A stretch of DNA of 64,000 bases, from the NCBI GenBank assembly GCA_019096065.1, contig JAGUCH010000004.1:8990001-9054000 (forward strand). Reading direction: 5' to 3'. The notes below the pieces were generated by a model that did not search any database, was not told where the DNA came from, and saw only the letters and a program-made list of their open reading frames with translations. Below, one piece after another: positions 33,251 through 62,449 of this stretch; the stretch's first letter is position 1, and the number at the start of each line of letters is the position of its first letter. Origin of the DNA: Paracyclopina nana (lineage: Eukaryota > Arthropoda > Copepoda > Cyclopoida > Cyclopettidae). The position numbers and the translations under genes were made by a program.

Positions 33251-33339
33251 ACTCTCGATGTTGGTTCTTTACCTCATTTAAGCCAAAATGGATAAGAATT
33301 CAATTTTTGCTTTTATTTTGTGGAGACCAATCCCAAGAG

Positions 33340-37720: not shown

Positions 37721-38429
37721 TGATGGACGACAAGTTCATCATGGCGTTATGATATGGAAATGGGATGACAGAAACAGAAGGAAGAAGAAGATGACTATTC
37801 AACGCAAAAATATCAACCATAACCTCGCAACCTCCCTGTTGAATTGCATCAGAAATATGGGAAGGAAGATGAAGCTACCTGGTGAAGGGAGGTTAGCCTT
37901 GGGAGGACAAGGCAGGATTGCGAGGTAGAAGGGAGTTCTTCGGGGGACCTCAGAGAAGCAACATGTCAACTTTATAGCTAGAGGTTGACTGGTGTGAACT
38001 CTGCCAGCAGCTGGAACCTGAAGATCCTCACCAAGTTTGATGTGTGCAGCACTGAAGCGACAGTCGCAGAGAAGAAACTTTATTGTCATATATATTGTTT
38101 TGAGCTCTGATTAGAAGCAGCTGTTATGTCGTGTTGTGCCAGCTAATGAATAGAAAATACCATCAGACCTTAATGAAGTATATTAGTGCTCAACTCATAG
38201 CGAGGTCCTGATCCCTGGAATGATCAGGGTGAAAGGGCGAGCCTTAACCACTGGTCAACTGTACATAAGCGTGCCGAGAGGTTCCTTGCTAGAAGCTGTG
38301 TACGTGAGGCTGCGGCCTCTGCATAGCGGCTTGTGAGACCTGGCAGCTCCGGTGTTGCGAATGAGTACTGGACTTGGGACCGATGCTTAACCTTCCTAGG
38401 TTCCTAAAGAGAGTACGAATTGTACACCA
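37721..38429 (+). repeat. 5' LTR of the giant element
   Basis: 709 bp, TGATGGACGA...TGTACACCA. No mismatch to 61741-62449 was seen on direct line-by-line comparison. A CATATATATTG at about 38087 could act as a TATA box. An open frame on the minus strand occurs in both LTRs and is not considered a gene. Confidence 0.97.
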
Positions 38430-38432
38430 TTT

Positions 38433-38450
38433 TGGAGGCCCCGGAGGGAT
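38433..38450 (+). other. Primer binding site of the giant element
   Basis: TGGAGGCCCCGGAGGGAT lies three bases after the 5' LTR. Its complement ends in GGGGCCTCCA, as in some tRNA-Thr acceptor ends. The tRNA assignment is tentative. Confidence 0.7.
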
Positions 38451-39716
38451 AGAATGGCCACTCTCTCTCTAGTGGTTTGAAGACCAAAAGAAGTCCTGGA
38501 AAAAGATGGATGGATGCGTCCTGAAGTTACCCATTTGTGGCTGTGAATTGCCGAGGGCGAGGCTGCAATGGTTAGGCGGCACTTTAGTTGCGACTGGGGT
38601 GTGTCAATACTGTAAAAGTCCTGAGGCTGACGAGCCAAGAAGGCCATCCCGGTGGAAGTGTCTATGTGTAGTCTAGCGGTAAATGCAATGAAAAAGGCAC
38701 ACGTACATTTCGCACCGTTGCCACATTTAGAGGTTGTGCCTAAATAGACTATATCTATGAATGGACGGCCCTAGTTTGTGAAGAAAATTCCATGGATCCT
38801 AGCCAGACAAAGTTCCTATGTTGTGTGGCTTGGTACTATCATTTCCTAAGGGAGAAGGCCCGTGGGGACGTCCTTGCTTGTCTTAAGCTGGAAAATGGGA
38901 GCCAAGCAGCCGGAAATGGTAGCCGGGTGGTGGCATGCGTGTCATTGCCCCTGTGGGCTTTAATGGGTCAATGGAGCTCAAGATGGGAGCCATTTTGGAA
39001 AGTTGAACCCGTTAGAAGCTGAAGCAGATGGAAGAACGAATAACCTGGAGCGTGTAGGGCGTGCATGGAGCTTGGGGTGGAAGCCACCCTGGAAAGTGTA
39101 TGGTGCTCTGGACCAGGGCTCTTCTGGGGCGCAAAGAGTGCGCGCCTGGGCGAGCTTCGTATACCTGTGTGTGTGTGTACCTCTTTCTCTTTCCATTCAC
39201 TTTGTTGAGCTTGCTCAGCACAGTGGCGTTCAGGATTGGTAAAAGTGAATGCAACCCTTGTTTTTCAGCTTGTGGGCACTTAGGATTCTGTTGGACATCT
39301 GGTGCCTAGGTTTGGTAATATCCCTTCTGAGCAAGTGCTCATCTTTATTCTTGTGTGTGTGTGTGTATATTTGTGTGCGTGTGGGTCTTTGGTGAAGACT
39401 ACTTAGGTAAAAGTGGTCCTAATCATTGAAATAAAAACTTGTCATAGTAATTGCAACTTTTTCTCCGAGTCACTTGACCGGCGTAAGTAGGAAGCTAACT
39501 GTGCTTTGAACAGTATTACGATTAAAAGCTTTAGCTTTTAATTGAGTGCGATTAGAGGCCTAGTGCTTTTAAGTCGTGCGACATAGCTCTGTACGAAAAG
39601 TTAGCATTTGTGTTAACTTAGTACAAAAACCTAGTTGAGTCTTAGAGATTAACTTCTCTGACGAAACTAAAGGACAAGTTGAGTTAAAGAGAACCTCTCT
39701 TTAGCGAAACGGAAGG
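38451..39716 (+). other. Untranslated leader of the giant element
   Basis: About 1.3 kb with no supported gene. GGTAAAAGTG occurs twice (39239-39248 and 39406-39415 region) and could be a 5' splice site for a subgenomic RNA. A TG-rich microsatellite lies at 39353-39385. Packaging signals would be expected here but none can be pointed to. Confidence 0.5.
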
Positions 39717-42203: not shown

Positions 42204-45200
42204 TGTCTGAAATGGAAGAAGAACCTAAAACAGACACTACACTTGATGATTGTTATGTTCTGCCCTCATTTATGCGTGGAGAATGTAACAAAGAAGTAGG
42301 GAGAGTGTATTTTGATCATCTAAAAGCACTCTCAGAAAAGAGAAAACAGTGCGCAAAGAGGCCTGATGAAAAAACCTCAAGTGCCATTGTTTTGGCCATA
42401 TCTGGTTCTCAGTACATGAATGAGACTAAAGATGGGTTAACCCCACCTAGGATGTGGAAAGGAATATTGTTATGGGTAATTGTGATGCTAGCTTTGGTGC
42501 TGTGGCTGAACAATTATGACCAAGTCGTGCCTGTAGCGATAGTATACATTATAATAATGGTATGCTGGTGTATGTGCTGGTTTTTTCCAGACACATCCCA
42601 CACGTATGATGTACCTGTACATGTGGCGAAGCTAACTGCTGGCTGCATTGAAACTCCGGATGAAAATGTACAGCCAGAAGGGATCATTAAAGATGATGAC
42701 ACGCTAAGTGTATTTTCCTTAAAACTACACAATGTGTGTGAAAGGTACTACATACCTGTCCAAATTACAGGCCAGATAAGACTTCATGCCTTATTTGACA
42801 GTGGAGCAATGGTTCAAATCATATCTCGCACACTAGTAAGGTTAGTTGAAGAAAAATTGGGTTACTCATTACCGCGAGTTCAAACCAATTATCTTATTAA
42901 GAATTTCAATGGGGAAGAATTTCCCAGCACTGAAGGTGTGGTTCTGCAAGTCGCCTTTAACAATAGAGTACTGATTAGACAAGCAGTGTTCTTAGTCTCT
43001 GACTGTGAGACCCTGCTTATGATTGGGAATTCGTTATTAGTAGATAACAACATACGCTTGACTAGTAGGGATGGAAGTCATTTTATTGATTTCCCAGGGC
43101 GAATAAAATATAAAAAGATTCCCCTAGTCCTTACTAAGGAAGCGTTTTACCCTGTAGCTATAAATGAAAGTATTACTGTGCTACCTGGAAGGGAAGTGAC
43201 AGTTAATGCTAGCTTTCCGCATGAGATACCTTTGGTAGCTGAGCCCATTCTTGGTGATTCAGACGCCGAAGTGGACCATGATGAAGTTAAAGTAAAGCCA
43301 GAAAGTAAAAGCGTTTACTCTAGCTTTCATGATAAGTGTTTGGAATTTAGTCCGGATGAGGATTATACCAGCGCTACTGCTGAAGGATGTGTTACTTCTG
43401 TGACCCGGAAGGGCACTTTTCCAGTGCAGATAGGTAATAATTCTGACGAGCCCATTTACATTGAGGCTCATTCTATCATAGGAAAGGCTAATATTGTTAA
43501 GAAACAACGCTATAAGCCTACCCAAATAGTGCATAAGTTAAACCTCAGTTTAAAGTCTTTGAACCATATAGTGGACACTTGCTATTGTGAGTTTATTGAC
43601 ACGCATATTTTGGTGCAATTTGTTGACATAAATGGATTAGCTTTCACTGACATGCACACCTTTAATGAACAAGTTCACATAAAGGGTAATGTTAAACAAA
43701 AGCTAACCAGACATTGGAACCATGTTTTCATTGCCTCTAACCAATCTGATGGTTTTGAGGAAATCACTGATGACTTATTGATAGAGTTTGTCAGTAAATG
43801 GAACTGGAATAGCCTACCATGGGTAGTTGTTGTCCCTAGTGACAAATTATTGTCTGGGGAACAAAAGCGGATTATATTAAAGCTCAACTCTATAGTTGAA
43901 AAACTAAGTGTAGTTTGGGTAAAATACAAAAACGTTCATGATAAATGTAGGACTATAGCTCTCACTCCTATAGAGAATTACCTGGCTGGTATGGAGAGAG
44001 TGGTGCTAACTATCATGGTTCATAGTTATGATTGCTTTCCTGTTGCTTATCAAAGAAATGGAAATGATAAATATTACGAATTCACTATCTTGGGTGCTCC
44101 CACCGTCATGTATAAGATAGCAAATGATATAGAACTAATGATCCATGTGCCTTGCCCCAAATCAAGGGATGTTGGTTACATGGCTACCTTAGTTTACAAT
44201 ATATTTGGCCACTTACGTTACAAATGTGTGGCTGATAATATATGGGTGAGAACCTTAATGGATGGTGATGTGTCAGTAGAAGAACCTGTGTGTTTAGCAG
44301 TGTCTTCTGCATTGTTATTACTATCGGGCTTGCCTATGTATCCACATAAATCTACATTTGAGGATATAAAGACAAAGTTTGGTGGTTTTATACCTTTTGA
44401 GTTTAAGCCAGAAAATTGTGCTTGTGCTCTTTGTCTAGCTAACCGTGCTGGGTCTAAGATAGTGTGTAAAAGTTACACTACAATATATGAAGGCCCTATA
44501 GCTGATCTTTGTGTCAGGCAAACGGTAATTAAAAACCCATCTGAATTGGACCTAGTGTCCGCTTCTTTAGAAATAACGCAAGACGAGGCAAAGAATCAGA
44601 GGCTGTATGAAGAGGTTTATAACCTTTTATTGCAGTTCCCTAGTGAATTTGACCCACATCGAGTTCTAAATGGAGTAGCTGGCTACACCTTTCCATTGGA
44701 ACTTGACACCGTCTTAAAGTTTGACCTGGACCACATACCAGTGGAAGTCAGAGAAGACTACAGGAATATATTGATAGAATATAAGGACATCTTCTCTGAT
44801 GATCCGAGATCTTTTAGGTTATGGAATGTGGACCCCGTAAAGTTTCAATTGAAGGACAATAAACCCCTGGTACCGAAGGTGTTTAACATGTCTGAATATG
44901 AAACCACTCAAGTGGATAGAAAGATATCATTGATGTTATCTTCTGGTCTAATTGAGATAGTAGATAAGTCTTTGAATAGGTACTCTGCTTGTCCTTGCTT
45001 CTTGACATCAAGGCCAAACGATGAAAAGTTACCTATGAAACAACGTAAACCTAGGTTATTAGTGGACCTGACGTCCTTTAATAAGAACCTAATTTTCACG
45101 CCATCTGAACATATTGTTCCACCTATTCCTACATTATTAGGGATGCTTTCGAACTCATGTTTGATGTCATCTTTTGATGTCACCTCAGGATATGACAATT

Positions 45201-48200: not shown

Positions 48201-48838
48201 CTTCTTCGCTAGGAACCTCTACCATAAAGGATCACCAAACCTTGAAACATTCTGGATCTATACTGCGGAAGAAGGCTACTGATTTGTTTAAGCCCTCTGA
48301 TGTGCGTCGCATCCAGGAGGAAAATCGTAGAATTGTTAAGCAGCAATGGGACAATTATGTACCTAAACCACCGCCTAATGAAGGTGTGACTGATTCTGCT
48401 GATTCTGCTCATATGAAGGAAGGTTCGTACCTTTCTCCGGATGAACAGAAGGCTGATAAACTCATTGACCAGTTACTCGAATCTAGTAGCAAAACATATG
48501 AGACTACCCTCTACGAGGAGCTTAAGTCTCTCCAATCGGAAGATTTACCCACTTTTGAAGACTTGGCTGCAAAAGGGAAGGTATTCCTCGAAGTACCGAA
48601 ATCCACTCGACCACGCAGCCCCAGTCAAATAAGTACACCTACTAATATGACTGGGACACTATTGAATGATGATGTCAGTCCAGTTCCTCGTGCTTTTAGA
48701 GGTCGAAGGTCACCGCGCCCCAGCCCCAAAAGCCCAGAACAGGAAGAAGCTGACATCTCAAAAGTAGTGAGCGAGGCCTCGTTGCTTATAAATCAAGATA
48801 AGTTTGATACGGATCTTGAATCGCTAGCTTCGCACTAG
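42203..48838 (+). CDS. pol: Pol polyprotein: membrane segment, protease, RT, RNase H, integrase
   Basis: About 2211 aa from the ATG in TAATG at 42203; the frame is open from 42143, so a -1 frameshift from gag is also possible, but no classical slippery heptamer was found. In order: two hydrophobic segments (residues 83-129); retropepsin with LFDSGA (Asp 199); about 600 unassigned residues; RT (LVDLTSFNK near 951, YVDD at 1061-1064); RNase H (VVDSG, QREAL, VTDCLS, IVDIL; about 1228-1343); and integrase with an HNHLG/CMHC zinc site and Asp 1645, Asp 1706, Glu 1746. A GPY/F-like segment and a roughly 230-residue hydrophilic tail follow. All catalytic residues are present. Membrane helices in front of the protease are odd for this family. 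Confidence 0.9.
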   Translation: MSEMEEEPKTDTTLDDCYVLPSFMRGECNKEVGRVYFDHLKALSEKRKQCAKRPDEKTSSAIVLAISGSQYMNETKDGLTPPRMWKGILLWVIVMLALVLWLNNYDQVVPVAIVYIIIMVCWCMCWFFPDTSHTYDVPVHVAKLTAGCIETPDENVQPEGIIKDDDTLSVFSLKLHNVCERYYIPVQITGQIRLHALFDSGAMVQIISRTLVRLVEEKLGYSLPRVQTNYLIKNFNGEEFPSTEGVVLQVAFNNRVLIRQAVFLVSDCETLLMIGNSLLVDNNIRLTSRDGSHFIDFPGRIKYKKIPLVLTKEAFYPVAINESITVLPGREVTVNASFPHEIPLVAEPILGDSDAEVDHDEVKVKPESKSVYSSFHDKCLEFSPDEDYTSATAEGCVTSVTRKGTFPVQIGNNSDEPIYIEAHSIIGKANIVKKQRYKPTQIVHKLNLSLKSLNHIVDTCYCEFIDTHILVQFVDINGLAFTDMHTFNEQVHIKGNVKQKLTRHWNHVFIASNQSDGFEEITDDLLIEFVSKWNWNSLPWVVVVPSDKLLSGEQKRIILKLNSIVEKLSVVWVKYKNVHDKCRTIALTPIENYLAGMERVVLTIMVHSYDCFPVAYQRNGNDKYYEFTILGAPTVMYKIANDIELMIHVPCPKSRDVGYMATLVYNIFGHLRYKCVADNIWVRTLMDGDVSVEEPVCLAVSSALLLLSGLPMYPHKSTFEDIKTKFGGFIPFEFKPENCACALCLANRAGSKIVCKSYTTIYEGPIADLCVRQTVIKNPSELDLVSASLEITQDEAKNQRLYEEVYNLLLQFPSEFDPHRVLNGVAGYTFPLELDTVLKFDLDHIPVEVREDYRNILIEYKDIFSDDPRSFRLWNVDPVKFQLKDNKPLVPKVFNMSEYETTQVDRKISLMLSSGLIEIVDKSLNRYSACPCFLTSRPNDEKLPMKQRKPRLLVDLTSFNKNLIFTPSEHIVPPIPTLLGMLSNSCLMSSFDVTSGYDNLPVDSDSADMCCLAVTSPRSRYRGLYLKSKAILQGTALAVREFSSLLIQAINPEILPFTCVYVDDLLVSCKNPDKPKPATLDDYKRHLGDLRKLFDSLRELNALLQIKKTQLGVKEATVLGHLIKIDEHGVMTMQMPDKYRTAFDDFPMPSTKKQLQKFIGMTNWLSQYCPNMATYTAPLLDVMATKQGKTGKFNFSPFQEKCFYKVIEEIKTGMSLALPNFKEAYLVVDSGVISTSALLMEIDANGKAVCVGAHSARFPLSVCLSYHSFQREALGVLMMIHHYKSILFAYERLVIVTDCLSIASILASSFTGKDAFTHRLAARIYSLPVAWKIRAVPRTEIEIVDILLNKYHQTEGNTVFFAPYSIQSQITKDIYAGVYPLPEEISSKVITTQELLTHVFDTLVNSGTMSKSLLQKRLQCLNDKWVELIGSSPPFVHDDTSTILHARHKDDDEVDRLTEVSHSFEGEANPESPVFDIENNVIVDAITVKRKISVHLPGITRNLLIRLQQNCEETQKLVNMLVLTPEHEVPTSIAARYRVIDCALLVIRKNVKLPFTKATNTKVYMSMQNCVYLMACIHLLHNHLGSKKVNTLFTQSMFSTYSARISRIIVGACMHCALYRQANTRFVGKGRFRIPDKPFDLVMIDLAYFDQTLVKGKDAKVCLVIIDVYSKMIIAKPLLNSTYREVATAMEEVTSLFGVPKTLLADNGAQLTSNHALQRLIDKYKIQELCQYRTLSPNKHSNAYAENSVRVLRNALILNSKSYKRPMSEVFKLSVYAINNRPLTYLSYTDPNGVKVIPTPFSLFFDKMPGYHLGRDVFEILSESEDIIHKAEWQDVMRKYDEEEQRRFELMKATERPSFKPEIGSLVLVIKHPVNKHGYKFMQDLFEVIDVGSHSTVTVKPYLHDGLTREVSLDHVKLYRFHELYKFLPEKITHLLMRPYTPDEMLQRLSRNEMLKFLEEDEPEVNEYALRNRVSQSIAARDEAKSEWASNVTEELITATSSLGTSTIKDHQTLKHSGSILRKKATDLFKPSDVRRIQEENRRIVKQQWDNYVPKPPPNEGVTDSADSAHMKEGSYLSPDEQKADKLIDQLLESSSKTYETTLYEELKSLQSEDLPTFEDLAAKGKVFLEVPKSTRPRSPSQISTPTNMTGTLLNDDVSPVPRAFRGRRSPRPSPKSPEQEEADISKVVSEASLLINQDKFDTDLESLASH

Positions 48839-50778: not shown

Positions 50779-50810
50779 GCTTGAGTTCCACGAAGGTGGT
50801 AAACTCAAGC
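50779..50810. other. Stem-loop (12-bp stem)
   Basis: GCTTGAGTTCCAC, loop GAAG, GTGG-TA-AACTCAAGC. A strong inverted repeat. Confidence 0.7.
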
Positions 50811-50986
50811 TATAAACTAAATGCGAAATGTACGCCACCCTCGGACTGAACCGAACAAGGGCACTCGCATAAGATTACCACTACTATCGGCCACTTGGCA
50901 CGTAGTGTAATATAAATAAAATGAATGATAAAATAAGGTGTGTGCTGAACAACTAGGGCACATCAATTCTTAACATCATGGACGAG

Positions 50987-51012
50987 AAGTATCAGGCTGC
51001 CACCTGATACTT
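50987..51012. other. Stem-loop (10-bp perfect stem)
   Basis: AAGTATCAGG, six-base loop, CCTGATACTT. Confidence 0.75.
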
Positions 51013-51231
51013 GCATACTATATGGATTTGATAAAAAGAGCAAGAATAAAATAGGGGAGCTCAGTAGCGCCTCTTGGCTACTTCTTCTTGTCCCACGTAC
51101 AGCTCTTTCAACTGAGCGTGTACTATACAATATTGCCAAGCGTCCAGATGGAAAAGCAATCTGCTTAAGCTGCAAAAAGACTTTGGCCAACTTGCAAGTG
51201 CCAATCGACATTTCAATATGAATCAAAGAAC

Positions 51232-51455
51232 GGGTCGCCATTCTTCAATCGCAGCGCTGCCCAGCCATGGATGGGCGTGGGCTAGCGCAATAATAGCCTC
51301 CGTTGCATTAAGCAACTTTAAAAAATAAAAATTAGAAGACAAAAATGAAGGATGCGACACCCTTGCAAGCGGGTCGCCGTTCTTCATGCACTGCTCTGCC
51401 CGAATTGGGCTAGAGCAAGCGCGATAATAGATTACGTTGCATTAAGCAACTTTAG
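51232..51455. repeat. Two diverged copies of a 90-bp unit, 139 bp apart
   Basis: Copy 1 at 51232-51321 and copy 2 at 51371-51455. Both start GGGTCGCC and end in GTTGCATTAAGCAACTTTA, itself a GTTGC/GCAAC stem. Both have a GCCC...GGGC stem in the middle. Confidence 0.8.
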
Positions 51456-51540
51456 AAACGTTCTTGGCCACAGCGTCCTGTGACCATGTTTATTTAAAAA
51501 ATTATTATTATTTTATTAGTACTGAGCAAAAGGATACTTA

Positions 51541-51704
51541 CCTGAAGACTGCCAAGTTTTGGAAGGATTTTCCTCCCAAAACCTGAGCTTCTTGGGTAGG
51601 GGGGGTACCCAGAGCCAGAGCACGCACAAGCCAGAGAGCGAGTGCGCGCTGTCACTAAAAATTCCAAAAAAAAATGGAGGCGTCCTTAAAACAGACGCGA
51701 CCAC
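51541..51704 (-). other. Possible exon on the antisense strand
   Basis: On the minus strand the sequence reads TCTTCAG|GTAAGTATC at 51540, a near-perfect 5' splice site. The preceding 164 bases are open (62-codon frame including read-through), but no start, acceptor or partner exon was found. It may be a 5' exon of another antisense transcript. Confidence 0.3.
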
Positions 51705-52280
51705 TTCTAGTTTGAGGCGGTTTTACCCCTTTGTTAAAGCAAGCTGAAGTCTAGACTGAAACAGCCCAAGAATTCCAAGGGAACAGTCTGCCCTAAAACT
51801 ATAACAATGCACACCAATAGGAAAAACGTAGCGCTTATATTATAACATCCTGGCCCGCGTCAGGGTGCAATTACATAAGGGGTGTGGCGCCACCTAGAGA
51901 CCAAGGGGCCCGCGCCCATTTGAAAACGTTTTTGCTAAATTAGCAGATAATTTTGCAAAATAAGCAGACTGCAAACTAAAACATTGTAGTTTTGCTCGGG
52001 AAAAAGATATCCAAAAGCGACTGGATTTGTCAAAATTCTGCCAAATTCTAATAAATGCTGAGTAGCCTTTGCAGAACTTTCCCTACAAGATATGTACACG
52101 TATGGAAATTTGAGCATTAAGGTAAACTAAGCTAAAGTTCTTGCTCGGTCAGCTGAACAAGCTTCTATATAAAAAAGCTGACTTATATCAAAAAATCTGT
52201 CTATGATATTTTGGGTGCAGTGACCACTGAAACCATTAGTAAAAGTGTGCTGGCTGCAACGTATGTGACGTAGCCGTAGC

Positions 52281-53108
52281 CTCCAGGGGGCGCGACTATC
52301 CCCATATAACTGTGGCAAGGATGATGCATATTTTATGCAACAACCTAGTACCTGAAACAGTACATCATTGGTGCCGTTATGCATGGCTTAATAAGTTGAC
52401 CAGACCAATACTAAGTTTGGCAAGGAGTTTATAGAAAACATCCGGACTTGATTATGTATTCAAAGATAGATATCATGATGCTTGGTCATGAATTGAGCTA
52501 GAACCTACTGGAAACCATACTTTATTATCTTTTTGTTCCTCGTCTGGTTCTATGGTTTTGCCCTGGGACCAGATTGAGTTGCAAAGGTGACTGATGCCGC
52601 AGAGTATGCGCCTTATAAAAAGGCCGATAATTGCTCTAGTAGCTCTTGCTTTTCCGTCCTATAACCGAGCTATCTGTACTGGTACTCAGTCACAAATAAG
52701 CGCACAATTTTTATGTGGCCCCATTTTGGGCCTTTAATGATAACTAGACAAAGCTATAAGGTAAAGCTTTACAATGAAAACGATAAACAGTGAGTGCTCG
52801 TTTACCATTACATGGAAACAAATAAATAGTACTCAAACAGGTTATGTGTCTGTGCCTAAAGTTGGCCTTTAGCGAGCCAGAAGTTTTGGGTTGGATGAGG
52901 GACAATGACCCTTCTGAACAGACAATGAACTGCCATGAGTTGAGTAATGGTTATTGCTTGGCAAAAAACATTATTGAACGTCTTCCCCGCTGTGTGGTTT
53001 TGCTAGAAGATGAAAATAATGGCAGACACTGCCCATAAAAAGCAATGGTACGGCAGACAGTAAATGGGTAAAACGTTACAAACGTTGCGGTTAATAGTAC
53101 TGAGGGTT
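52281..53108 (+). repeat. Core repeat unit 1
   Basis: Starts with a CTCF-like core CTCCAGGGGGCGC (52281-52293). 275 bases later (G at 52560) comes hairpin A (GGTTTTGCCC), and about 147 bases after that hairpin B (ATTTTT, GGCCC...GGGCC, 52707-52742). Confidence 0.6.
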
Positions 53109-53937
53109 GCGCCAGAGGGCGCTCCATGACTCGTTGACTATGCTGCACCTGAAAATTACTGCCTGCCTGCGAAGCGAAACCCGAAATAATAGCTTTGCAG
53201 GTATGTGCTTGGGGCTGTAATACATAGCCTTCTTTACTGTAGCTGCAGGTGGCTTAAAAATGGCTATTCATGCTACAAGTATGAGAATGTTCAATGTAAA
53301 TGAGAAAATGGTTTGATGGTTGCTAAACAAAAATGTACGAACAAACCATTACTTTATGACAACTTTGTGCTTGTCTGCTTCTGGGGTTCTGTCCCCAGGA
53401 GTAGGTACCGTGCAGTAGCATTCAGTGGTCTGTCATGTAGCAGTACACTGGAATCTTACTAAAAGCTTCCAGTTAGAAAGCGCTTAATATAAGCTTATGG
53501 CCATAGGACCACTGTCTGCTAAAGGTCACACAATTTTTGTAGGGCTTCGAGCCCATTATAATGTATTATGTGTGGCCTAAGAACACTTATGATGCTTATA
53601 AAAAACTTGAAGAAAAAGTCATGTTCTATGAGCAATAATGTTAAGCGTGGAGGCTAGTAAAGCTAGCTGACATGATGCTACTATAATTTTGCACTTCCTG
53701 TAAATCGTTCGATTTTAGGGCTCGACCACTGTGCAAAATGGGGCGATCTGATCTGGAACGTGTTACTGAGGCTCCAGACTTAGCTGAAAATAACTTTCTC
53801 AGTGAAAGAAGTAAGCTTGCCCACCAACAAAATGATCGCTAAGATAATGGCGATAAAGAATGCGAGATAAGCTGTGTACGCTGGCATTTTACTTGCTTGC
53901 GCCTTATGAGCATAAAGGTTAGTACAGCAGTGAAGCT
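53109..53937 (+). repeat. Core repeat unit 2
   Basis: CTCF-like GCGCCAGAGGGCGCTCC (53109-53125). Hairpin A is CTGGGGTTCTGTCCCCAG (53381-53398, offset 277). Hairpin B is ATTTTTGTAGGGCTTCGAGCCC (53533-53554). Confidence 0.65.
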
Positions 53938-54544
53938 CGCTAGATGGTGCCGCTAGCCAAAAGAGTGGCTGGAACGGACAGTAAAGTTTGCAATATACAA
54001 AAGGTGTAGCAAAGGAACTATTTCCATTTGCTTCATCGACAAAATATGACCTAGAGGGATCATGAATGCGCACATGCTTTGTGGATAAGAACTACGTAGC
54101 ACGCTATAACTTGAGAAGTGTGCAAACGAGGAGCATATCGCCACATTGTACGTAAAGAAAATGTGCATCAATAAAGGCTTTTAACTTTGTGACTCTGTTT
54201 GTGCTTGGGGTTCTGCCCCCTACAAGCCAAATGAGACGCTGCCGTAATAGTGGCCATAAGCTGAGTGGTTGCCTCTCCACCTCAGGTTAGACTCATAAAT
54301 GAGCTCTTGGCAAATGGCGCTAATTACACGAAGGCAGTTAATTTTTGTGGGGCTCAAAAGCGAGCCCTATCATTAAAATATAAGATATGAGGGCATTGAC
54401 TTGGAAAAGTTCTGAGCGTGCTGATGTGAAAAGGAGCTCATGATAATAACCGATGCTTCTTATGCGCCAATGAGAATGCAAATATCATCTTAGCACTCAG
54501 TCTAAGAACGAAACGTTATGAATACAAATTACCGCTGTGTTAGT
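53938..54544 (+). repeat. Core repeat unit 3 (shortened)
   Basis: CTCF-like CTAGATGGTGCCGC (53940-53953). Hairpin A is GGGGTTCTGCCCC (54207-54219, offset 273). Hairpin B is ATTTTTGTGGGGCTC...GAGCCC (54341-54367). About 200 bases are missing before the next unit. Confidence 0.6.
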
Positions 54545-55015
54545 GCTAGGGGGCGCCACGGGTGGTAATCGTGAATCATAAATTACACCAGTAATGTCAT
54601 GCCATTATAGCGTAGAGGCATGAGAACCAAGGAGCAGTGCTTTAATGTGGACTTATTATTAATGTGCATTGAGAACCTTGCTGAAGCTTTGAAAGGCGTC
54701 GAGGCTAACATGTACTGCTTCTTTTACCAAAAGAGAAAATAAGACTGATGGAAAGATGGTACCGCAGTGTGTGCTATACAGACCATATTTTTGTTCACTT
54801 TTTGTTCCTAGTCTCAGCTTGGGTTTTGCCCCTTGCTTGAGCTAAGGTGCGTAAGGCATCTGGGATCAGAAGAATAAAGCGATGCTCCAGGGGCTAGTCC
54901 CTTGGTTTATGGGCTTGAACTTTCTTCTTTTCTCTGCTTATGACACCTGATTTCGGATGCCTCCACGCACCCGTATTTTTGTTGGGCGATAGCGCCCCTT
55001 ATTATAGCTAATATG
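54545..55015 (+). repeat. Core repeat unit 4
   Basis: CTCF-like GCTAGGGGGCGCCA (54545-54558). Hairpin A is GGGTTTTGCCCC (54821-54832, offset 280). Hairpin B is ATTTTTGTTGGGCG...CGCCCC (54976-54999). Confidence 0.6.
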
Positions 55016-55468
55016 GAAAGTAATCTACTCGTCGCACCGTACAGAATTTTATGTGCAAGTGCTGAACCGAGTACGAGAAGGTTATTGTTATTACCTGCTC
55101 ACGTGAGGTGACGAGATAAGACCTTAACCTCTGATTATCTGCTATGGCTTTCTACCTGTGGAGCTAATTATAATGTGTGTGACAAACGCTGTAAATGTAG
55201 CTTTTCGTTAAGATGCTTGAGAAAATGCAAAGCTACTATACACAAACATGAGAATATCGTAGTCGGCAAGGCTCGAGTTATGCCATGCTAGTGTAAATAT
55301 GATATGATAAGATGAGGCAGGCAAAGCAAATCGGCACTCGAAAAAGCCGTAGTTTTTGCTGAGGCTTTGGCAATGAATGGATGAGTCAGCAAAACAATAG
55401 TTTGCTCAGCTCAGAAAACGCGAAATGATGTGCGATGACTCAGATATCAAAAGTAGGGCGAAACTGGC

Positions 55469-55474
55469 TTTATT
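55469..55474 (-). terminator. Poly(A) signal of the 132-aa antisense gene
   Basis: AATAAA on the minus strand at the end of a GC-rich 3' UTR exon that begins at 55557 after a pyrimidine-rich TTTTTTCAG acceptor. Confidence 0.6.
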
Positions 55475-55614
55475 GCCCGAAAGGGAGGTGAGGCCGGGCC
55501 CGGCGGGAAGGTGGGCCGGGGGTGCGCCCTGTTGCCCCTCCTCGCATCCAGACAGTTCTGAAAAAATAAAAACAGTGTCAAGGGTAATTCCGTTAAGCCT
55601 GATAAGGACACTTA

Positions 55615-56157
55615 CTACACCACGCCCTCGAGGGGGTCCTCGGTCTCGGGGATCCCGCAGAGGCTGAGGACCCAGCGGGTCGCCCGGGGGAGCTCCTCTG
55701 GCTCGGCCCAGAAGCGGCTGACGAGCCGGTACAGCCCCCGGGGCTTGGCCCGGTTGACCCAGACCAAGCCCGGGAGCACCACCCCATAATAGGCGGCCGC
55801 CGCTGCCACGTTTATGGCGATGCCCTAGAGAATCTCTTCGGCCTGCAATGAAAAGGAAGATCGCTAAAGGGATCTAATCCGTTACGAAAAGAACTTACAA
55901 CACCATCCCCCTGGCAGGTCTGGCCTTGAAGGCCCGCTAGCTGGCCTGCGGGCTCCTGGGGCAGCAGGACCGCGGACTCGGCCGCGGCCTGCCCCCCTTC
56001 GACGGGAAGGTGGGCGGGGGCAGCCGTTGCTGCTGCTGCTGCTGTTGATTGTTCTTTAGACTGTAAAACATAAAATGTTGTTTTACGAATAAGATTGCAC
56101 TGGAATTTGAAGATTTCTGTTTGCACTTACGAAAAAACCGTCCAAAAATGGGGCCAT
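55615..56157 (-). CDS. Antisense spliced gene, 132-aa small membrane-like protein
   Basis: Coding exons 56131-56157, 55899-56060 and 55615-55824, all phase 0. Donors are GTAAGT and acceptors are TTTTACAG and CTCTAG; a 3' UTR exon follows from 55557. The start ATG at 56157 has AAG before it and G after. An alternative acceptor (TTGCAG, exon from 55842) would add six codons including a TAG, so acceptor choice decides between a 67-aa and a 132-aa product. The middle is alanine/proline-rich. The C-terminal third has a hydrophobic run (AAAAAYYGVVLPGLVWV) and a tryptophan-rich basic part. Exons are about 70% GC, unlike the neighbours, which suggests foreign origin. No family recognised. Confidence 0.6.
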
Positions 56158-56367
56158 CTTGGAAAGAATGCTAACTGTGGCGCTACCAAGTAATTTGTTA
56201 CGTATATGAGTAAGAAGTTAACCAAAAGTGCCAAAATAAATGGAATAATTGCGTTAGCTCATAAAGCAGCCCTGACTGCTATGCCGGCATTCTTGGTTGA
56301 TGTAACTACCACACTTGGCGGTATCTAACTTGTGTTATGGTTATAGGACTATTAGGGCATTAGTGCT

Positions 56368-56381
56368 TTTATTAGTTTATT
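56368..56381 (-). terminator. Poly(A) signals of the 294-aa antisense gene
   Basis: Two AATAAA on the minus strand (56376-56381 and 56368-56373), about 85-100 bases after the stop at 56466. Confidence 0.65.
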
Positions 56382-56465
56382 GGATCTGTTGAAGCTCATG
56401 TAAATAAAAACAATGACATAGTGCTAAAACAGAAAGCTAAACACGACGAAACATAACGGTGATCT

Positions 56466-57554
56466 TCAATTGGGAGACGTTGTGGAAGTGCTTGGCACTC
56501 CTTTGGAGGCCTCATCTGGAAGCTCATGGATTGTGGCTTCGGCAATCCGAGGGGTGTTGATATAAAATTGGCTCCTGTTCCGGCGCCGTTTGTTGCGTTT
56601 GCGCTGCAAACTGGGGGCTAGTCTCTCGGGTTCCTGCAATTATAAAAAATAGTAAGATTGAGAGATGAGTTTGCTTTCTTTTCGGACCAAAAGTTGATTG
56701 TAAACTTCTGACCCCTTTAGAATGAGAAACAGAAAAGGAGGCTTACTTGTCTCGTTGGCCGCAACACGTCATAAACTGGCTCGTGTGCCAATGGTACAAA
56801 GGCCTGGCGAGGGAGAGAAGCCACTTGAAAAGTGGGCATTCCATCCCGCATAATGATCATCCCCTCGAAATCCGAAGGCAAAGCGGGGAGTGAGGGCAGG
56901 GGCCGTCTGGTCAAAGTCTCATAAATGCCCGAGGTCGATGGGTTTAACAGGGGCAGGGCCAGAGGTTCCAATTCCACTGGTTCCTCATGCTTGACCTTCT
57001 CGATGCAAGCCCGGCAGAAGCAACAGCTCTTGCATTTCTTGTACAGCTTGTACAAGAGGCATGTAGTGAGAATCAACAGCACCTGCAAAGTAACAAGCGC
57101 ATATTACCTCTGTGTGGTTGAGGATAAGTCTTGGAAAAGGAGGTACTAAATAAGAGATGAAAAGCTTGCTTACCAAAATGACTGTGATGGTGGTTGCTAG
57201 GCCAATCCAGTCTTGCAGCCCGTATTGCTCAAAGTCAAAGACGCCACGAGGAGTGGCTGCTGAGAAGTCTTGTTCTGACTCCTCACGGGACTCTATTGGT
57301 CTCCTGGGCTCTACTAGTTCAGGTGGAGACGATGAAGTTTCTGGAGCTGGTGTGGTTGACATGACAGTGACCTCGGTAGAGGTCACTGGAACCTCAGTTG
57401 CGGCCACTGGAGAATAAGTTGAGGTCCGAGTCCAGGACTCGGGCAGCTTCCAGCGAGTAGTGGTGACTAGAGGCAGCCTTGTGGTGCTCGAAGTCATGAG
57501 AGTTGTAGTTGCTGGAGTTACTGGTGTGGTAACCGGTAATTGCATAAATCCCAT
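56466..57554 (-). CDS. Antisense spliced gene, 294-aa mucin-like membrane protein
   Basis: Three exons in phase 0: 57174-57554, 56747-57082 and 56466-56633. Introns are 91 and 113 bp with GTAAGC donors and TTTGCAG / ATTGCAG acceptors. The N-terminal 105 residues are Thr/Ser/Pro-rich, as in O-glycosylated stalks. A transmembrane helix spans the first splice junction (WIGLATTITVIL plus VLLILTTCLLY), followed by a Cys-rich juxtamembrane segment (KKCKSCCFCRAC), a proline-rich tail with possible tyrosine signals, and a basic cluster (RKRNKRRRNR). No cleavable signal peptide; topology probably N-out by reverse signal-anchor. Good start context (AACAAGATGG). TATA and initiator lie upstream. Family unknown; could be an accessory surface protein. 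Confidence 0.7.
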
Positions 57555-57618
57555 CTTGTTTAGTGTCGACGAAAAGTTGGCCTATTAAAAGTGGTGGGGT
57601 TGAAGGACTGCTTAAGAC

Positions 57619-57653
57619 TGAAGTGAAAGCTGTCCAGGGCAATGCCTTTTATG
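57619..57653 (-). promoter_or_regulatory. TATA box and initiator for the 294-aa antisense gene
   Basis: On the minus strand CATAAAAGG (57645-57653), then TTCAGTC with the A at 57619, 32 bases downstream, which is the arthropod TATA-Inr spacing. A 65-nt 5' UTR without ATG precedes the start at 57554. Confidence 0.6.
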
Positions 57654-57858
57654 CAGGAGAGCTTGTCCTATGTCACAAGACCGAGTCTTGAGCTGTGGAA
57701 TTTGTTGACTCAGCATCTTGGAGACAAGAGCAACAAATCCAGCGGGGAGAAATGATTCACCCAGGCCACAAGAAAATTGCGCACTATAATATGAACGTGC
57801 TGGAGAAATTATGGTAATAATAACGCTGTGAGGCGCTGTTGGTTACCTGTTTGGGAGC

Positions 57859-57894
57859 TATAAAAGAAGGGGTGGAAATGAGCAGGTTACAGTC
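57859..57894 (+). promoter_or_regulatory. TATA box and initiator for the 545-aa gene
   Basis: TATAAAAG (57859-57866) and TACAGTC with the A at 57891, 32 bases downstream. The next ATG (57896) is only five bases away, so the leader would be very short. An upstream start site using the ATG at 57878 is possible. Confidence 0.5.
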
Positions 57895-59476
57895 TATGAT
57901 GAACACTGCTGCTGATACCACCCTACCCAGCCTTGCCAAACTTGGTGAAGCTTTGCCTGAAAACGAGATGGATTCAAAAAAGAATGTTGAAGTCCGAAAG
58001 GTTGACGTGGTCATGATCCCGCAGATAGAGGATCATGAACATGAGGCTTTGCTTATGGAAGAGGTACCTGAGGGTGTGGCCCCTGGTGCAATCGATCAGG
58101 ATGCCTACCGGGCTAATGCCCAGTTTTGGGATGAAGAAAGTGCAGGGTTAGACCAGATGGCGCTCTTTGCTGATGCCCAAACTGGCGATGAAGCTGATGA
58201 GGCAGAGGGACATCCCTTACATGTGAGAGGAGGGGATGCTCCAAGGAAGGACTCTGGTGACCAGGTTATCCATGAGAATGTAGAACATGAGGTTGCAATT
58301 GTGACTCGGGCTCCTAATGCTAGAGTTCTGACTGAAAAAATGGATCAGGATGATGAAGGACCAGCACCTACTCACAATGGTGAGGTAGCCCGTGCTGACC
58401 CTAGATTGATGAGGCCTTGCATAGTTGAGCTCCCCCTTGGGGATGAAGCTGTGAGGCTAAGGTATCCTGTGGCGTATCAGGACTTGATCCGCCCTCCATT
58501 TCCGGATACTGTCAAGACTTATAACCGTCAAGCAATGGCTGTACGGGAATTGGTCCAGAGGGGCTATAACGAAGCCATGTTAAAAGTGGCTGTTAGCAAT
58601 GCTCCGATGGTTAGCCGTGAACGAGCCTTCGACGTCACGGTACGGTGCAATGGTGAGGTCCTGGAGCAACCGGACTTTCGTCGCCCGCTCAAGGTGTGTA
58701 ACTTTGAAACCTTCGAGTTACAATTAAAGCCAGTTAGCGAGGGAGGACCGCTACCAGACTTTGTGGTGGTTTTCTTGATGTTGGGGACGCTCCCAGTCTT
58801 CAATTTGCCAAAGGAGGCTGCGTTCAATGACACCTATCATCGACGCACGAATGTAAGGGATTGGGCTGCGATTCAAAGCCCCTCTGCACTTAGCTACGCA
58901 GTCTACAATGTCCAAGGAAGAGACGGTGCCAGAGTACCTGTTGTGGTATCCAAGCATCTGGCTAAACATGGCGTTGTTCAACTGAAGCCAACACTGGATA
59001 GGTCTTTTGCCAATGCCAGGCTTTTTATGGATGTAAGCTCACCTTACTTCCAGTTGCACGTTGGAACCCCATCTTGCCTAATGCATGAGGTTGCCCAAGC
59101 TCCTCGAAGAATCGATATCAAGGTCGACTTGACTGCCATGCTGCCCCGCGAGGTGGGCAGGTTTGTGGAACGAGTTGAGCGCTCTAACCCCCAAGCGATG
59201 CGTTTCATCTCTGGGGCCCGCTCACTGAAGGTAGCCGAAATACAGGATCGGCCACAGAAAAACCGTCGAGGTACCCGCACTTACTTGGAGGCGGCGACTA
59301 ATCAATCTGCTGGGGCCATGTCTATTAAACAAGGAGCTCCAAAAGCGAAACGTACCAAGGGCGACAAGGAAAAGGCTCGATTGGGCCAATTAATTGTAGC
59401 CAAGATGGAGACGCTATCATCAACTGACTTGAAGTCCTTTGGAGCGGCGATAAATGAGTTTGTTGACCAATTCTAA
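57878..59476 (+). CDS. Sense gene of unknown function (about 530 aa)
   Basis: An open frame of 545 codons from 57839; the first ATGs are 57878 and 57896. The first 190 residues are acidic and probably disordered. Residues 200-470 look globular with beta-type segments (FDVTVRCNGEVLEQ, FETFELQLKPV, FVVVFLMLGTLPVFNLP). The C-terminus has a basic stretch (KAKRTKGDKEKAR) and a short helix. No membrane segment and no known motif. It could be a structural, nucleic-acid-binding or host-interaction protein; no homologue is claimed. It has its own TATA-like promoter and lies just upstream of the envelope-like ORF. AATAAA at 59620 may serve as its poly(A) signal. Confidence 0.7.
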   Translation: MSRLQSMMNTAADTTLPSLAKLGEALPENEMDSKKNVEVRKVDVVMIPQIEDHEHEALLMEEVPEGVAPGAIDQDAYRANAQFWDEESAGLDQMALFADAQTGDEADEAEGHPLHVRGGDAPRKDSGDQVIHENVEHEVAIVTRAPNARVLTEKMDQDDEGPAPTHNGEVARADPRLMRPCIVELPLGDEAVRLRYPVAYQDLIRPPFPDTVKTYNRQAMAVRELVQRGYNEAMLKVAVSNAPMVSRERAFDVTVRCNGEVLEQPDFRRPLKVCNFETFELQLKPVSEGGPLPDFVVVFLMLGTLPVFNLPKEAAFNDTYHRRTNVRDWAAIQSPSALSYAVYNVQGRDGARVPVVVSKHLAKHGVVQLKPTLDRSFANARLFMDVSSPYFQLHVGTPSCLMHEVAQAPRRIDIKVDLTAMLPREVGRFVERVERSNPQAMRFISGARSLKVAEIQDRPQKNRRGTRTYLEAATNQSAGAMSIKQGAPKAKRTKGDKEKARLGQLIVAKMETLSSTDLKSFGAAINEFVDQF

Positions 59477-59592
59477 ACATATGTATTTTGATTTTGGTGT
59501 AGATATGGATTATGAGTTTTGATCAACTTGCTAAATGGACCTCGGGTTCTAAGTAGGTTAGACTCGAGATATACGGTATTATAAAGTAAGAT

Positions 59593-61626
59593 ATGGTCTT
59601 GTGCGCACCTGACTATACTAATAAATGTTTGGTGGGGAAGGCTGGCTCGCTTGCCTTACCCGAAACAAGTACCTGTTGTACATATAAGGCGGCGTGGGCC
59701 TGGGGCCTAGTCAGTTTGTGCTTGACATTCGCTGAGTTAATAATGTTGGTGCTTGTGCTTTTGACTTTGTCTGTGCCCATAATCAACGGCCGGGCTGCAT
59801 CTAATGCACTATTAGATGGACCGGTATGTCACAAAGGGCATGCCTTGGTCCCTGTGCGCGTGGTTTACCATCCTAAGCCTGATAAAAAGGCTATGATCAT
59901 AGATACTGGTAACTTCCGCCAGCTCCTTGAAAAGACCCTCGACTCGGTGAATGTGCTCGAGGATGGTGTGGGGCGGTTAACAGAGGAGGTTCCTACCACT
60001 CAGACTCCCACTGACGTAGTGACCTACCAAGATAGAGAATATGTGGGTGTTAAGGCTCCACCAACAAAATTGGATGAGGAGTGTAAGACACTAGGACTTG
60101 ATTTTAGTTCGTTTGTTCCGGAAAACCAAGGTGACATGGACAGAACATTAGAACTCTTGACTCAAGCAGCAGATTCTAATACTGCGACCACCTTCACTTT
60201 TTGCTTGAAGTTTCGTTTCATTGGGAACACTCCAGTTTCACTGGATGGACATGTTCCGTTTGATAGAATTCCATGGAAAGAAGTTCCTAAAGCTTCCATC
60301 AAACCTGGATTCCCATGCATAACAGGGAAGTTTGCTGACAAAAAACTAGTGGAGGCTTCGTCACATCTTTATGACGGCACAAGCTCGGTGGGAACTATTT
60401 GTGTACGTCATAAATATGCCATTAATCATAAGGGCCAGATCAGCCATAAATTGTCCAAGGCCAAAAGTATGGTCAACCATGCTTTGACTGCTCTTAAAAA
60501 CCTTGCTGAAGCTGGTCGCACTACAAAATTTACTGAAGGAATGATGAAGAAAGTCAAACTTCTGGTCATTCCGGATAATATTAGTTTAGCAGTACACATG
60601 CTGCGAAAGGTTAGTGATGCATTTGTAAAACTTGGTTACTTGCCTGGAGATTACCAGGAAGTGCTAGCGATGGTGGAACAAATAGTTACCTTTGCTAGAA
60701 ACATTAGGCAGGTTGACAAGCGATTCAGTCTGCCCCGAGTTAACATAGCTAGTGATCTGGAGAACCAAGCTGTGACTAATAGTGTGTATGATCCACTAAC
60801 TAATACTGAAGTTGTGGGTGATAGTGTATCTCAGGGAATGATGAGTTTCCACAGTTTGGATCCTGAACCTGAAGTGACATTTAAAGTAGTGTCTAGAAGT
60901 GTTCATGGACAAGTGTTAGCGGACACATTCTTAACAAAATATAAAGATATGGCTTATGTCACTAAGGATCTACCCATTTATGGAGATTGCTATATGCATG
61001 ATGCCAATGTCACTGTGTGTGGTAATAAGCATGTTACAATGCCATATGGAGCCCAACAGTGTGCCAAGTTATTATTGGGCTTAGCCTTGGGTGACCCTTT
61101 TTCCGAGTGTAACATGGTCCCATTGACTGATAATACATTGGAAGAAGTGGCTTGCCAGGAATACAGGGGATTCCTGAACGTCATCAAGGACACTTCCATA
61201 AACAGGACTTGCTTAAATGACTTTAAGAATTCCATAACTTTAGTGCCTGGCTCGTACCAAGTGCTGAGCCATTGCCTGGTCACGATGGGAAGTTATAGTA
61301 CTGGGTATGAAGACTCCCCGTGGGAAAGTGACATTTTGAAGTTCTTTACAAAGTTTCCAGAGGAAGAGCCATTGGGTTTGTTTGACCATTGGAAAATCAT
61401 ACTAATTATAAGCACACTTTCAGGCTTTATTATAATTTTGTTAGTCTGCATCCTAGTGTGGAAACGTCGGGCACTAATCCGCAGATGCTGTGGAGAGCCT
61501 AATTATGTTGAACCAAGAACTGGGCGCCGGCGAGTTAATGCCAGGCGCCTTGACAATGAAAAGGACCCCATGGAAATGGGACTGATGGGTGCAAAAAACA
61601 AACTTGGAGCTGCTACGTTAGTATAA
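59593..61626 (+). CDS. env: Envelope-like type I membrane glycoprotein
   Basis: 677 aa from the ATG at 59593, shortly after a TATAAAG; an alternative start about 50 codons in gives a cleaner signal peptide (MLVLVLLTLSVPIING). The ectodomain of about 550 residues has scattered cysteines (CHKGH, CKTLG, CITGKF, CVRHKY, CYMHD, CGNKH, CAKLL, CNMVP, CQEYRG, CLNDF), NxS/T sites and a helical part (KAKSMVNHALTALKNL). A transmembrane helix lies near the end (IILIISTLSGFIIILLVCILVW), followed by a basic tail. No furin site plus fusion peptide is visible, so it is not F-type. Position before the 3' LTR fits an env. The fusion class is unknown. Confidence 0.7.
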   Translation: MVLCAPDYTNKCLVGKAGSLALPETSTCCTYKAAWAWGLVSLCLTFAELIMLVLVLLTLSVPIINGRAASNALLDGPVCHKGHALVPVRVVYHPKPDKKAMIIDTGNFRQLLEKTLDSVNVLEDGVGRLTEEVPTTQTPTDVVTYQDREYVGVKAPPTKLDEECKTLGLDFSSFVPENQGDMDRTLELLTQAADSNTATTFTFCLKFRFIGNTPVSLDGHVPFDRIPWKEVPKASIKPGFPCITGKFADKKLVEASSHLYDGTSSVGTICVRHKYAINHKGQISHKLSKAKSMVNHALTALKNLAEAGRTTKFTEGMMKKVKLLVIPDNISLAVHMLRKVSDAFVKLGYLPGDYQEVLAMVEQIVTFARNIRQVDKRFSLPRVNIASDLENQAVTNSVYDPLTNTEVVGDSVSQGMMSFHSLDPEPEVTFKVVSRSVHGQVLADTFLTKYKDMAYVTKDLPIYGDCYMHDANVTVCGNKHVTMPYGAQQCAKLLLGLALGDPFSECNMVPLTDNTLEEVACQEYRGFLNVIKDTSINRTCLNDFKNSITLVPGSYQVLSHCLVTMGSYSTGYEDSPWESDILKFFTKFPEEEPLGLFDHWKIILIISTLSGFIIILLVCILVWKRRALIRRCCGEPNYVEPRTGRRRVNARRLDNEKDPMEMGLMGAKNKLGAATLV

Positions 61627-61740
61627 AGCTAAAGTTTTGTTGTATCACTTATCATTTACTATTGAGCAATCTAGTCACCTTTTTTCATATTTTAGTTCAT
61701 AAAATGATGACAAAAGCTGAAAAAGTTTGGGCCGGGGTAA
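61627..61740 (+). other. 3' untranslated region and purine-rich stretch before the 3' LTR
   Basis: 114 bp. The last 20 bases (AAAAGTTTGGGCCGGGGTAA) include a weak purine tract that would prime plus-strand synthesis. Confidence 0.5.
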
Positions 61741-62449
61741 TGATGGACGACAAGTTCATCATGGCGTTATGATATGGAAATGGGATGACAGAAACAGAAG
61801 GAAGAAGAAGATGACTATTCAACGCAAAAATATCAACCATAACCTCGCAACCTCCCTGTTGAATTGCATCAGAAATATGGGAAGGAAGATGAAGCTACCT
61901 GGTGAAGGGAGGTTAGCCTTGGGAGGACAAGGCAGGATTGCGAGGTAGAAGGGAGTTCTTCGGGGGACCTCAGAGAAGCAACATGTCAACTTTATAGCTA
62001 GAGGTTGACTGGTGTGAACTCTGCCAGCAGCTGGAACCTGAAGATCCTCACCAAGTTTGATGTGTGCAGCACTGAAGCGACAGTCGCAGAGAAGAAACTT
62101 TATTGTCATATATATTGTTTTGAGCTCTGATTAGAAGCAGCTGTTATGTCGTGTTGTGCCAGCTAATGAATAGAAAATACCATCAGACCTTAATGAAGTA
62201 TATTAGTGCTCAACTCATAGCGAGGTCCTGATCCCTGGAATGATCAGGGTGAAAGGGCGAGCCTTAACCACTGGTCAACTGTACATAAGCGTGCCGAGAG
62301 GTTCCTTGCTAGAAGCTGTGTACGTGAGGCTGCGGCCTCTGCATAGCGGCTTGTGAGACCTGGCAGCTCCGGTGTTGCGAATGAGTACTGGACTTGGGAC
62401 CGATGCTTAACCTTCCTAGGTTCCTAAAGAGAGTACGAATTGTACACCA
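61741..62449 (+). repeat. 3' LTR of the giant element
   Basis: 709 bp, identical to 37721-38429 as far as direct comparison shows. It is followed by the GCTT duplicate. Confidence 0.97.

Follow-up and report, generated by a model that had tools for sequence, protein, structure and literature searches.

A 24.7-kb Ty3-type LTR retroelement with an env-like gene and a predicted antisense membrane-protein gene in the copepod Paracyclopina nana

Introduction

The size of reverse-transcribing elements has traditionally been considered limited to about 10 kb, given what it costs to copy and pack a single long RNA; errantiviruses usually measure several kb. Here we describe a 24.7-kb long terminal repeat (LTR) retroelement located at positions 37721-62449 of a 64-kb window, the latter being the whole stretch of DNA analysed (positions 8,990,001 to 9,054,000 of contig JAGUCH010000004.1 of the copepod Paracyclopina nana). 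The best overall explanation of this locus, to which we assign a probability of about 0.78, is a giant element with a Ty3-type reverse transcriptase (RT) that is present in at least 15 copies and carries an env-like gene, a further open reading frame (ORF4) and a predicted membrane-protein gene on the opposite strand (gene A). No such element was found in print within the open-licence literature searched. The closest described systems are considered first, and statements on them refer to the parts of the cited sources that were available.

Two giant LTR elements, Burro and Ogre, are named in a review of giant transposons, where Burro alone is named as having an interior above 20 kb (PMC6431247). 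Burro resembles the window element in being an animal Ty3-type LTR element with an internal region of >20 kb and an env-like part, but it encodes a polyprotein of 4,873 amino acids (aa), with env between gag and pol and with apoptosis- and ubiquitin-related domains (PMC6431247). The window element has separate gag and pol genes, an env-like gene in the last position and an antisense gene, and is set apart from Burro by the published description of the latter only. Ogre elements are Ty3-type elements of plants that reach up to 25 kb, much of it contributed by LTRs of 1.9-6.5 kb around an interior of 11-13 kb (PMC6431247), whereas the LTRs described here are 0.7-0.9 kb long (709 bp in the window) and the interior measures 23.3 kb.

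Errantiviruses and insect endogenous retroviruses share with the window element a Ty3-type gag-pol-env organization in arthropods but possess a baculovirus-type env (PMC12440569), whereas no Baculo_F (errantivirus-type env) match was found in the env-like protein of the window. Troyka is another separate, deep animal lineage near Ty3/gypsy, with CG...CG ends, 3-bp duplications, no env and an interior of at most 7.7 kb (PMC12440569). Membership in Troyka was rejected for the window element, which has TG...CA ends and a 4-bp duplication.

Antisense genes are known in the plant elements Retand, Grande and RIRE2, and gene23 of Grande has its own upstream promoter (PMC7264820, PMC11963269). The antisense ORFs of Retand encode mostly TRP28 within a region of 2.9-6.6 kb, and the available parts of these sources mention neither introns in these ORFs nor an env in Retand (PMC11963269, PMC7264820). 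The window element, in contrast, combines an env-like gene with a 12-kb region, and its antisense gene is predicted to have three exons and to encode a membrane protein; no Pfam match to the antisense TRP28 was obtained with the exons of gene A or of a second predicted antisense gene, gene B. Among animal retroviruses, hbz of human T-cell leukemia virus type 1 is a spliced antisense gene of a provirus, but it starts in the 3' LTR and encodes a basic leucine zipper factor (PMC10186651), whereas an internal start and a membrane protein are predicted here. ASP of human immunodeficiency virus type 1 is described as an antisense membrane protein (PMC10186651). A multi-exon antisense membrane-protein gene in an animal Ty3-type element is not described in the available parts of PMC7264820, PMC11963269 and PMC10186651.

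Results and Discussion

Boundaries, copies and insertion into a host gene

The initial annotation of this locus, made from the sequence alone, described two identical 709-bp LTRs with TG...CA ends, flanked by GCTT. Direct comparison confirmed this structure with zero mismatches between the LTRs (Table 1), which enclose an internal region of 23,311 bp. The primer-binding site, TGGAGGCCCCGGAGGGAT, is complementary to the tail of a tRNA-Thr(AGT) gene present in the same genome. The TG...CA ends together with a 4-bp duplication agree with the Ty3/gypsy (Metaviridae) elements, for which duplications of 4-6 bp are characteristic.

We searched the window's own genome assembly (91.95 Mb, 10 contigs), and all match counts from these sequence searches are lower bounds, the best candidates having been scored. 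An LTR search of the host assembly, proposed as a check in the initial annotation, returned at least 47 matches, fragments included. Together with 14 further LTR pairs that were read with their flanks, the window provides 15 copies for comparison. A perfect 4-bp duplication, a different one at each site, is found in all 15, and the LTRs are identical within the pair in 10 of them, with one or two mismatches in the remaining five. By LTR coordinates, 13 copies have a length of 23,464-24,799 bp, and the other two, of 34.1 and 37.2 kb, are in our reading nested insertions. Thus, the element is multi-copy and recent.

When the host flanks are joined without the element and with one duplication, they form a single uninterrupted frame of 529 codons that belongs to the CD36 family. 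The C-terminal piece of this protein is up to 56-57% identical to environmental contigs over most of its length and the two matches named by organism, both from bugs, are 34-36% identical; one matching transcriptome entry is presumably of copepod origin. Because of the paired LTRs, the duplications across copies and the open host frame at the empty site, we conclude that the element represents a genuine and recent insertion within a host gene. The interior could in principle be an assembly join of separate loci, a danger that the initial annotation itself had pointed out, but we give this scenario virtually no credence, since the 14 other LTR pairs carry matching 4-bp duplications, 12 of them at a like length, and the empty site restores the open host frame.

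Table 1. Features of the retroelement and of the interrupted host gene (positions in the window)
Feature	Position	Strand	Remarks
CD36-family host gene split by insertion	36725-37720 + 62454-63029		one open frame once rejoined
Target-site duplication GCTT, left	37717-37720	.	directly abuts 5' LTR
5' LTR	37721-38429	+	709 bp, TG...CA; 0 mismatches to 3' LTR
Primer-binding site	38433-38450	+	complement of tRNA-Thr(AGT) 3' end; kept in 14 of 14 other copies read
gag, 828 aa	39717-42203	+	open frame; two C-terminal zinc-knuckle-like motifs (our reading)
pol, 2221 aa	42173-48838	+	weak protease, RT, RNase H, integrase core (Pfam)
ORF3, 257 aa	48910-49683	+	in four sister copies, by length included in the pol frame (C-terminal part)
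Conserved block with splice-like ends	51517-51661	-	donor CAG/GTAAGTAT
RNA unit a, predicted structure	52549-52738	+	weakest
RNA unit b, predicted structure	53366-53556	+
RNA unit c, predicted structure	54190-54374	+	most compensatory changes
RNA unit d, predicted structure	54808-55001	+
Gene B exon 2 (predicted), 69 aa	55618-55824	-	codon-position changes
Two AATAAA poly(A)-type signals	56368-56381	-	downstream of gene A
Gene A exon 3 (predicted)	56466-56633	-	carries stop
Gene A exon 2 (predicted)	56747-57082	-	remainder of transmembrane segment, cytoplasmic tail
Gene A exon 1 (predicted)	57174-57554	-	Ser/Thr-rich mucin-like ectodomain, start of transmembrane segment
Two-way internal promoter (predicted)	57555-57898	.	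TATAAAAG at 57859 on +, TTTAATA on -
ORF4	57839-59476 (open)	+	likely start 57899, eighth codon of longest ATG form
env-like gene, 627 aa	59593-61626 (open)	+	likely start 59743; last gene before 3' LTR
Polypurine-like tract GGGCCGGGGTAA	61729-61740	+	identical in 12 of 14 other copies read; 1 base differs in 2
3' LTR	61741-62449	+	709 bp, TG...CA ends
Target-site duplication GCTT, right	62450-62453	.	directly abuts 3' LTR

Besides the family of the window element (family 1), the genome contains a second family of about 23 kb, whose pol, env and ORF4 products are 75-82%, 40-49% and 39-50% identical to those of the window, respectively. Its LTR, read from one copy, measures 918 bp; 14 LTR pairs span 22.9-23.4 kb, with scores equal within the pair in 12 cases. 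Among the matches listed, 37 of 39 near-full-length family-2 env matches have no stop. Family 2 contributes dozens of copies. The 15-mer of the primer site occurs 74 times in the genome and its reversed control not once. An env or ORF4 relative lies downstream on the same strand for 72 of the 74 primer sites, 61 of these at a distance of 18.0-22.4 kb. It should be noted that the pairing used lists comprising 63 of 68 env matches and 12 of 81 ORF4 matches and accepted any same-strand entry within 60 kb, so that the figure of 72 of 74 should not be taken as an exact number of separate elements. Assuming some 70 elements of roughly 23.5 kb each, we estimate that these would occupy near 1.8% of the genome. 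The giant LTR retroelement with extra genes proposed in the initial annotation is thus borne out, and it has many recent copies. A third group, 65-66% identical to the window in pol, was observed in four of 55 pol matches (G000:C6:1149755, C7:5635096, C2:1043067 and C3:820219); its frames reach 2488 codons, and it is absent from the listed env and ORF4 matches and may have other 3' genes.

Gag and pol

For gag, no family was matched in Pfam or NCBIfam, the searches made for this protein. The pol gene follows in the -1 frame relative to gag with a 60-base overlap. Within pol, the domain order protease-RT-RNase H-integrase was found, as in Ty3/gypsy (Metaviridae), although the Pfam match of the protease is weak (E 0.029) and that of RNase H lies under the Pfam cut-off. 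Among PDB chains, the RT-RNase H part is closest to the Ty3 RT (2.8e-22), followed by 8r0s (2.4e-12), 7kse (2.9e-11) and 8wus (2.6e-8), which we take to be of the caulimovirus, foamy virus and murine leukemia virus types, respectively. Given its enzymes, ends and primer, we consider the element to be Ty3-type. In a set of 5.8 billion proteins, the RT-integrase part had 13 matches among 3877 candidates, all 20-26% identical, and IMG/VR, scanned with two to six short peptide patterns, yielded no relatives.

The pol frame of the window stops at 48836, and its open frame comprises 2231 codons versus 2513 in four sister copies (C4a, C7a, C3a and C2c), where, by length, it also covers the stretch that is separate in the window as ORF3. 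A stretch 43% identical to ORF3 is found in family 2. Five other family-1 copies (C1a, C2a, C4b, C8b and C2d) have pol frames of 1299-1584 codons, below that of the window. In the window copy the break is therefore in the C-terminal part of pol, downstream of the enzymes, and it is at other places in several sisters. The intact ORFs claimed in the initial annotation hold for gag, ORF4 and the env-like gene but not for pol, and neither this break nor the antisense gene and the RNA units described below had been mentioned there. By eye, two hydrophobic stretches, unusual for pol, are encoded at 42461-42586, in its N-terminal part before the protease-like region.

ORF4 and the env-like gene

Both genes between the antisense region and the 3' LTR are conserved across the two families. 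The start of the env-like gene is more likely at 59743 than further upstream, as several other copies have stops within the preceding 50 codons or do not have these codons. The ratio of nonsynonymous to synonymous substitution rates (dN/dS) is 0.075-0.126 for env in four of eight comparisons and 0.073-0.127 for ORF4 in six of nine, the remaining four env and three ORF4 comparisons being saturated and yielding no ratio. These values indicate strong purifying selection on both genes.

By eye, the env-like protein has an N-terminal hydrophobic stretch and a C-terminal transmembrane segment. No convincing match to it was obtained by phmmer, profile, Pfam, PDB sequence or BFVD fold searches, the latter being based on a poor AlphaFold model (predicted local distance difference test, pLDDT, 42). 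The best PDB profile match, an RNA polymerase subunit (E 0.0026), was judged to be due to chance. An alignment of nine env copies had no match among the 7993 best-sharing candidates scored from the 5.8-billion-protein set. Similarly, ORF4, whose AlphaFold model is also poor (pLDDT 39), had no match in Pfam, nor in PDB by single sequence or profile. Two to six short peptide patterns for each of the two proteins found no relatives in IMG/VR. Gag, ORF4 and the env-like protein are all unmatched in the searches run; the initial annotation had announced several unrecognized proteins.

The lack of convincing similarity to viral fusion proteins in Pfam, PDB sequences, the 5.8-billion-protein set and BFVD folds (with the poor model) would be expected if the element were a giant Ty3-type retrotransposon confined to the cell, with membrane-protein genes captured from cellular sources and an env-like protein that is not a fusion protein. 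We consider this explanation unlikely, since the env-like gene is located just before the 3' LTR, is under selection as strong as that on ORF4 and is conserved across two families; moreover, the selection observed over many copies makes more sense if the element itself profits from the protein for its spread. The env-like gene rather suggests an endogenous-retrovirus mode of life, where its product would enable particles to exit from and enter cells, and the locus likely represents a giant, hitherto unreported lineage of Ty3-type endogenous retroviruses that carry env. An undescribed lineage of giant retroelements or endogenous retroviruses had been suggested initially; novelty is supported by the remote pol matches and the lack of a close relative in the searches run, and the env-like gene fits the second term by its layout and the selection on it; a fusion-glycoprotein function and infectivity are putative.

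A predicted antisense gene

The plus strand between ORF3 and ORF4 comprises about 8 kb without a frame above 86 aa. On the opposite strand of this region, gene A predicts a three-exon mucin-like membrane protein. Its exons are all in phase 0, an intron splits the transmembrane segment, and the tail contains YETL and YDVL motifs in our reading. In 12 exon comparisons with four copies (C5a, C6a, C4c and C2d; two duplicate rows of one copy uncounted), dN/dS is 0.137-0.346 with no internal stops, and the GT after and AG before each intron boundary are kept. Gene A exons were matched, some partly, in 13 of 15 other family-1-type loci. In both family-2 loci, exon 1 alone was matched, weakly, and by eye their minus strand has a similar split transmembrane layout.

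Conserved noncoding blocks abound in the neighbouring region, and the antisense frames could be by-products of constraint on a regulatory region or on the sense RNA instead of a gene. This is highly improbable in view of the third-position bias and the dN/dS of 0.137-0.346 in three separate phase-0 exons, the GT and AG kept at the junctions and the presence of antisense AATAAA signals, and we prefer the reading of gene A as a protein-coding gene. For the predicted exon 2 of gene B, changes at the three codon positions number 14/7/30 versus family 2 and 5/6/13 versus C5a, where the frame has one stop.

Upstream of ORF4, TATAAAAG is kept in all seven other family-1 loci compared, from both branches, and TTTAATA precedes gene A in the window, C5a and C6a. 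A two-way internal promoter at 57.56-57.90 kb likely drives both ORF4 and the antisense gene, while gag-pol would be expressed from the LTR promoter.

Between the window and C4b, ORF4 is 98-100% identical and the gene A region (56589-57589) 50-62% identical in 250-base blocks, with an identity edge near 57.57 kb; the gene A exons of C4b are 39, 53 and 57% identical to those of the window, the last over 30 residues. About four gene A groups can be distinguished, judged by identity to the window exons only. Thus, gene A looks like a swapped cassette, possibly exchanged between proviruses by recombination. Since this membrane protein keeps its frame but differs blockwise between near-identical proviruses, its product would most simply be a surface protein under pressure to change, such as an attachment, immune-escape or superinfection-exclusion factor.

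Predicted structured RNA units between pol and gene A

Four paralogous units of about 190 nucleotides (a-d) are located at 52.5-55.0 kb, between pol and gene A. Common to all four are a 5' hairpin, the loop of which is GGGTTYTGYCC-like, then a long folded middle and finally a 3' hairpin preceded by a U-rich stretch. Three counterparts each were identified in C5a, C6a and C4c and four in C2d; in one family-2 copy, a scan by loop motif and stability found no clear counterpart. Versus plain shuffles, the stability z-score of unit a is -1.9, and those of the six further units tested range from -3.9 to -5.9. Compensatory changes were found in 2 of 50 pairs in unit b, 11 of 50 in c and 2 of 54 in d, versus at most 1, 3 and 1 in slid controls, with the structure predicted from the same rows and with unit a (two copies) and the d unit of C2d left out. 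As the compensatory pairs are strong for unit c only, its predicted structure is well supported and those of b and d are plausible.

The U-rich, AATTTTTG-like stretch ahead of the 3' hairpin is reminiscent of Sm-class small nuclear RNAs, and the conserved block downstream of ORF3 begins at 51534 with ATACTTACCTG, as do the host's own U1 genes, so that the units might be such RNAs or the block a U1 mimic. Both appear improbable. Rfam gave no match for the units (three hits are far under the cut-off), and the U-rich site varies between copies. A CTCAAAA-like motif seen by eye about 60 bases before four of six host U1 genes was not seen before the block, and, read on the reverse strand, the U1-like end matches the splice-donor consensus, while the opposite end of the block has a pyrimidine tract and AG; on these two grounds the U1 mimic was set aside by judgement. 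We retain the reading of structured RNA units; they would either act on the long genomic RNA or function as small RNAs of their own. The block itself is 79% identical in C5a, where it contains stops, and has a counterpart in family 2; it is a possible untranslated antisense exon. Another part of the element, at 51231-51458, contains two tandem repeats of about 137 bp, each with a GTTGCATTAAGCAAC hairpin.

Proposed mode of life and its significance

Replication of the element likely proceeds by tRNA-Thr-primed reverse transcription. An LTR element would be expected to lose its introns through splicing of the genomic RNA. The antisense introns of gene A would survive each round of copying, because in the genomic RNA, a sense-strand molecule, they are not recognized for splicing; if true, this gene would show how a retroelement keeps introns through its RNA stage. 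More tentatively, and at somewhat less than even odds, these elements would constitute giant complex retroviruses of small invertebrates, a new lineage alive in its host today, with 23-kb interiors read from both strands off internal two-way promoters, an intron-bearing antisense, serotype-like surface cassette traded by recombination, a paired ORF4-env module without known relatives and a bank of structured RNAs. As the genome holds dozens of recent elements under selection, the copying, packing and expression of a 23-kb interior are testable here. The blockwise-variable surface-protein gene hints at a live contest of element versus host or element versus element, and the divergence of pol may be relevant to the origin of retroviruses from Ty3-type elements.

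Several points weigh against the overall interpretation. The overlap of gag and pol showed no canonical slippery site. In an RT tree of 14 rows, the window branch is very long (3.42) and seven of 11 inner branches are open. Many copies are not intact, since the window pol ends early and five of the nine other family-1 pol frames are shorter still. The label "envelope" derives from the position of the gene and from a signal-like start and a transmembrane segment at the C terminus of its product, because the protein has no recognizable relative and its model is poor. Gene A was not seen in two degraded loci (L077 and L078), and by eye its family-1 product has no clear signal peptide. Finally, the splicing, promoters and translation of gene A, ORF4 and the env-like gene are predictions.

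Other features of the window

Several other repeated or mobile sequences were observed in the window. The 3' part of a gypsy-type element with integrase and a Baculo_F env, an env of the usual insect type, is located at 4-3148. A seemingly decayed gypsy-type element at 10114-17976 retains RT, RNase H and integrase frames and a Monjiviricetes-type fusion glycoprotein (16804-17712); direct repeats of 247 bp (96% identical) at 10114 and 17730 appear to be its LTR ends. A direct repeat of about 5.2 kb (3555-8722 and 25795-30998; 86-93% identical, 22.2 kb apart) is either a segmental duplication or a pair of very long LTRs. A DUF5641 frame, a domain that we take to be typical of BEL-type integrase ends, is found at 20918-22837 and is followed by an unmatched frame of 666 aa (22838-24838). 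Minisatellites with units of 16, 18 and 19 bp are present at 32628-33319, 35532-36122 and 63109-63781.

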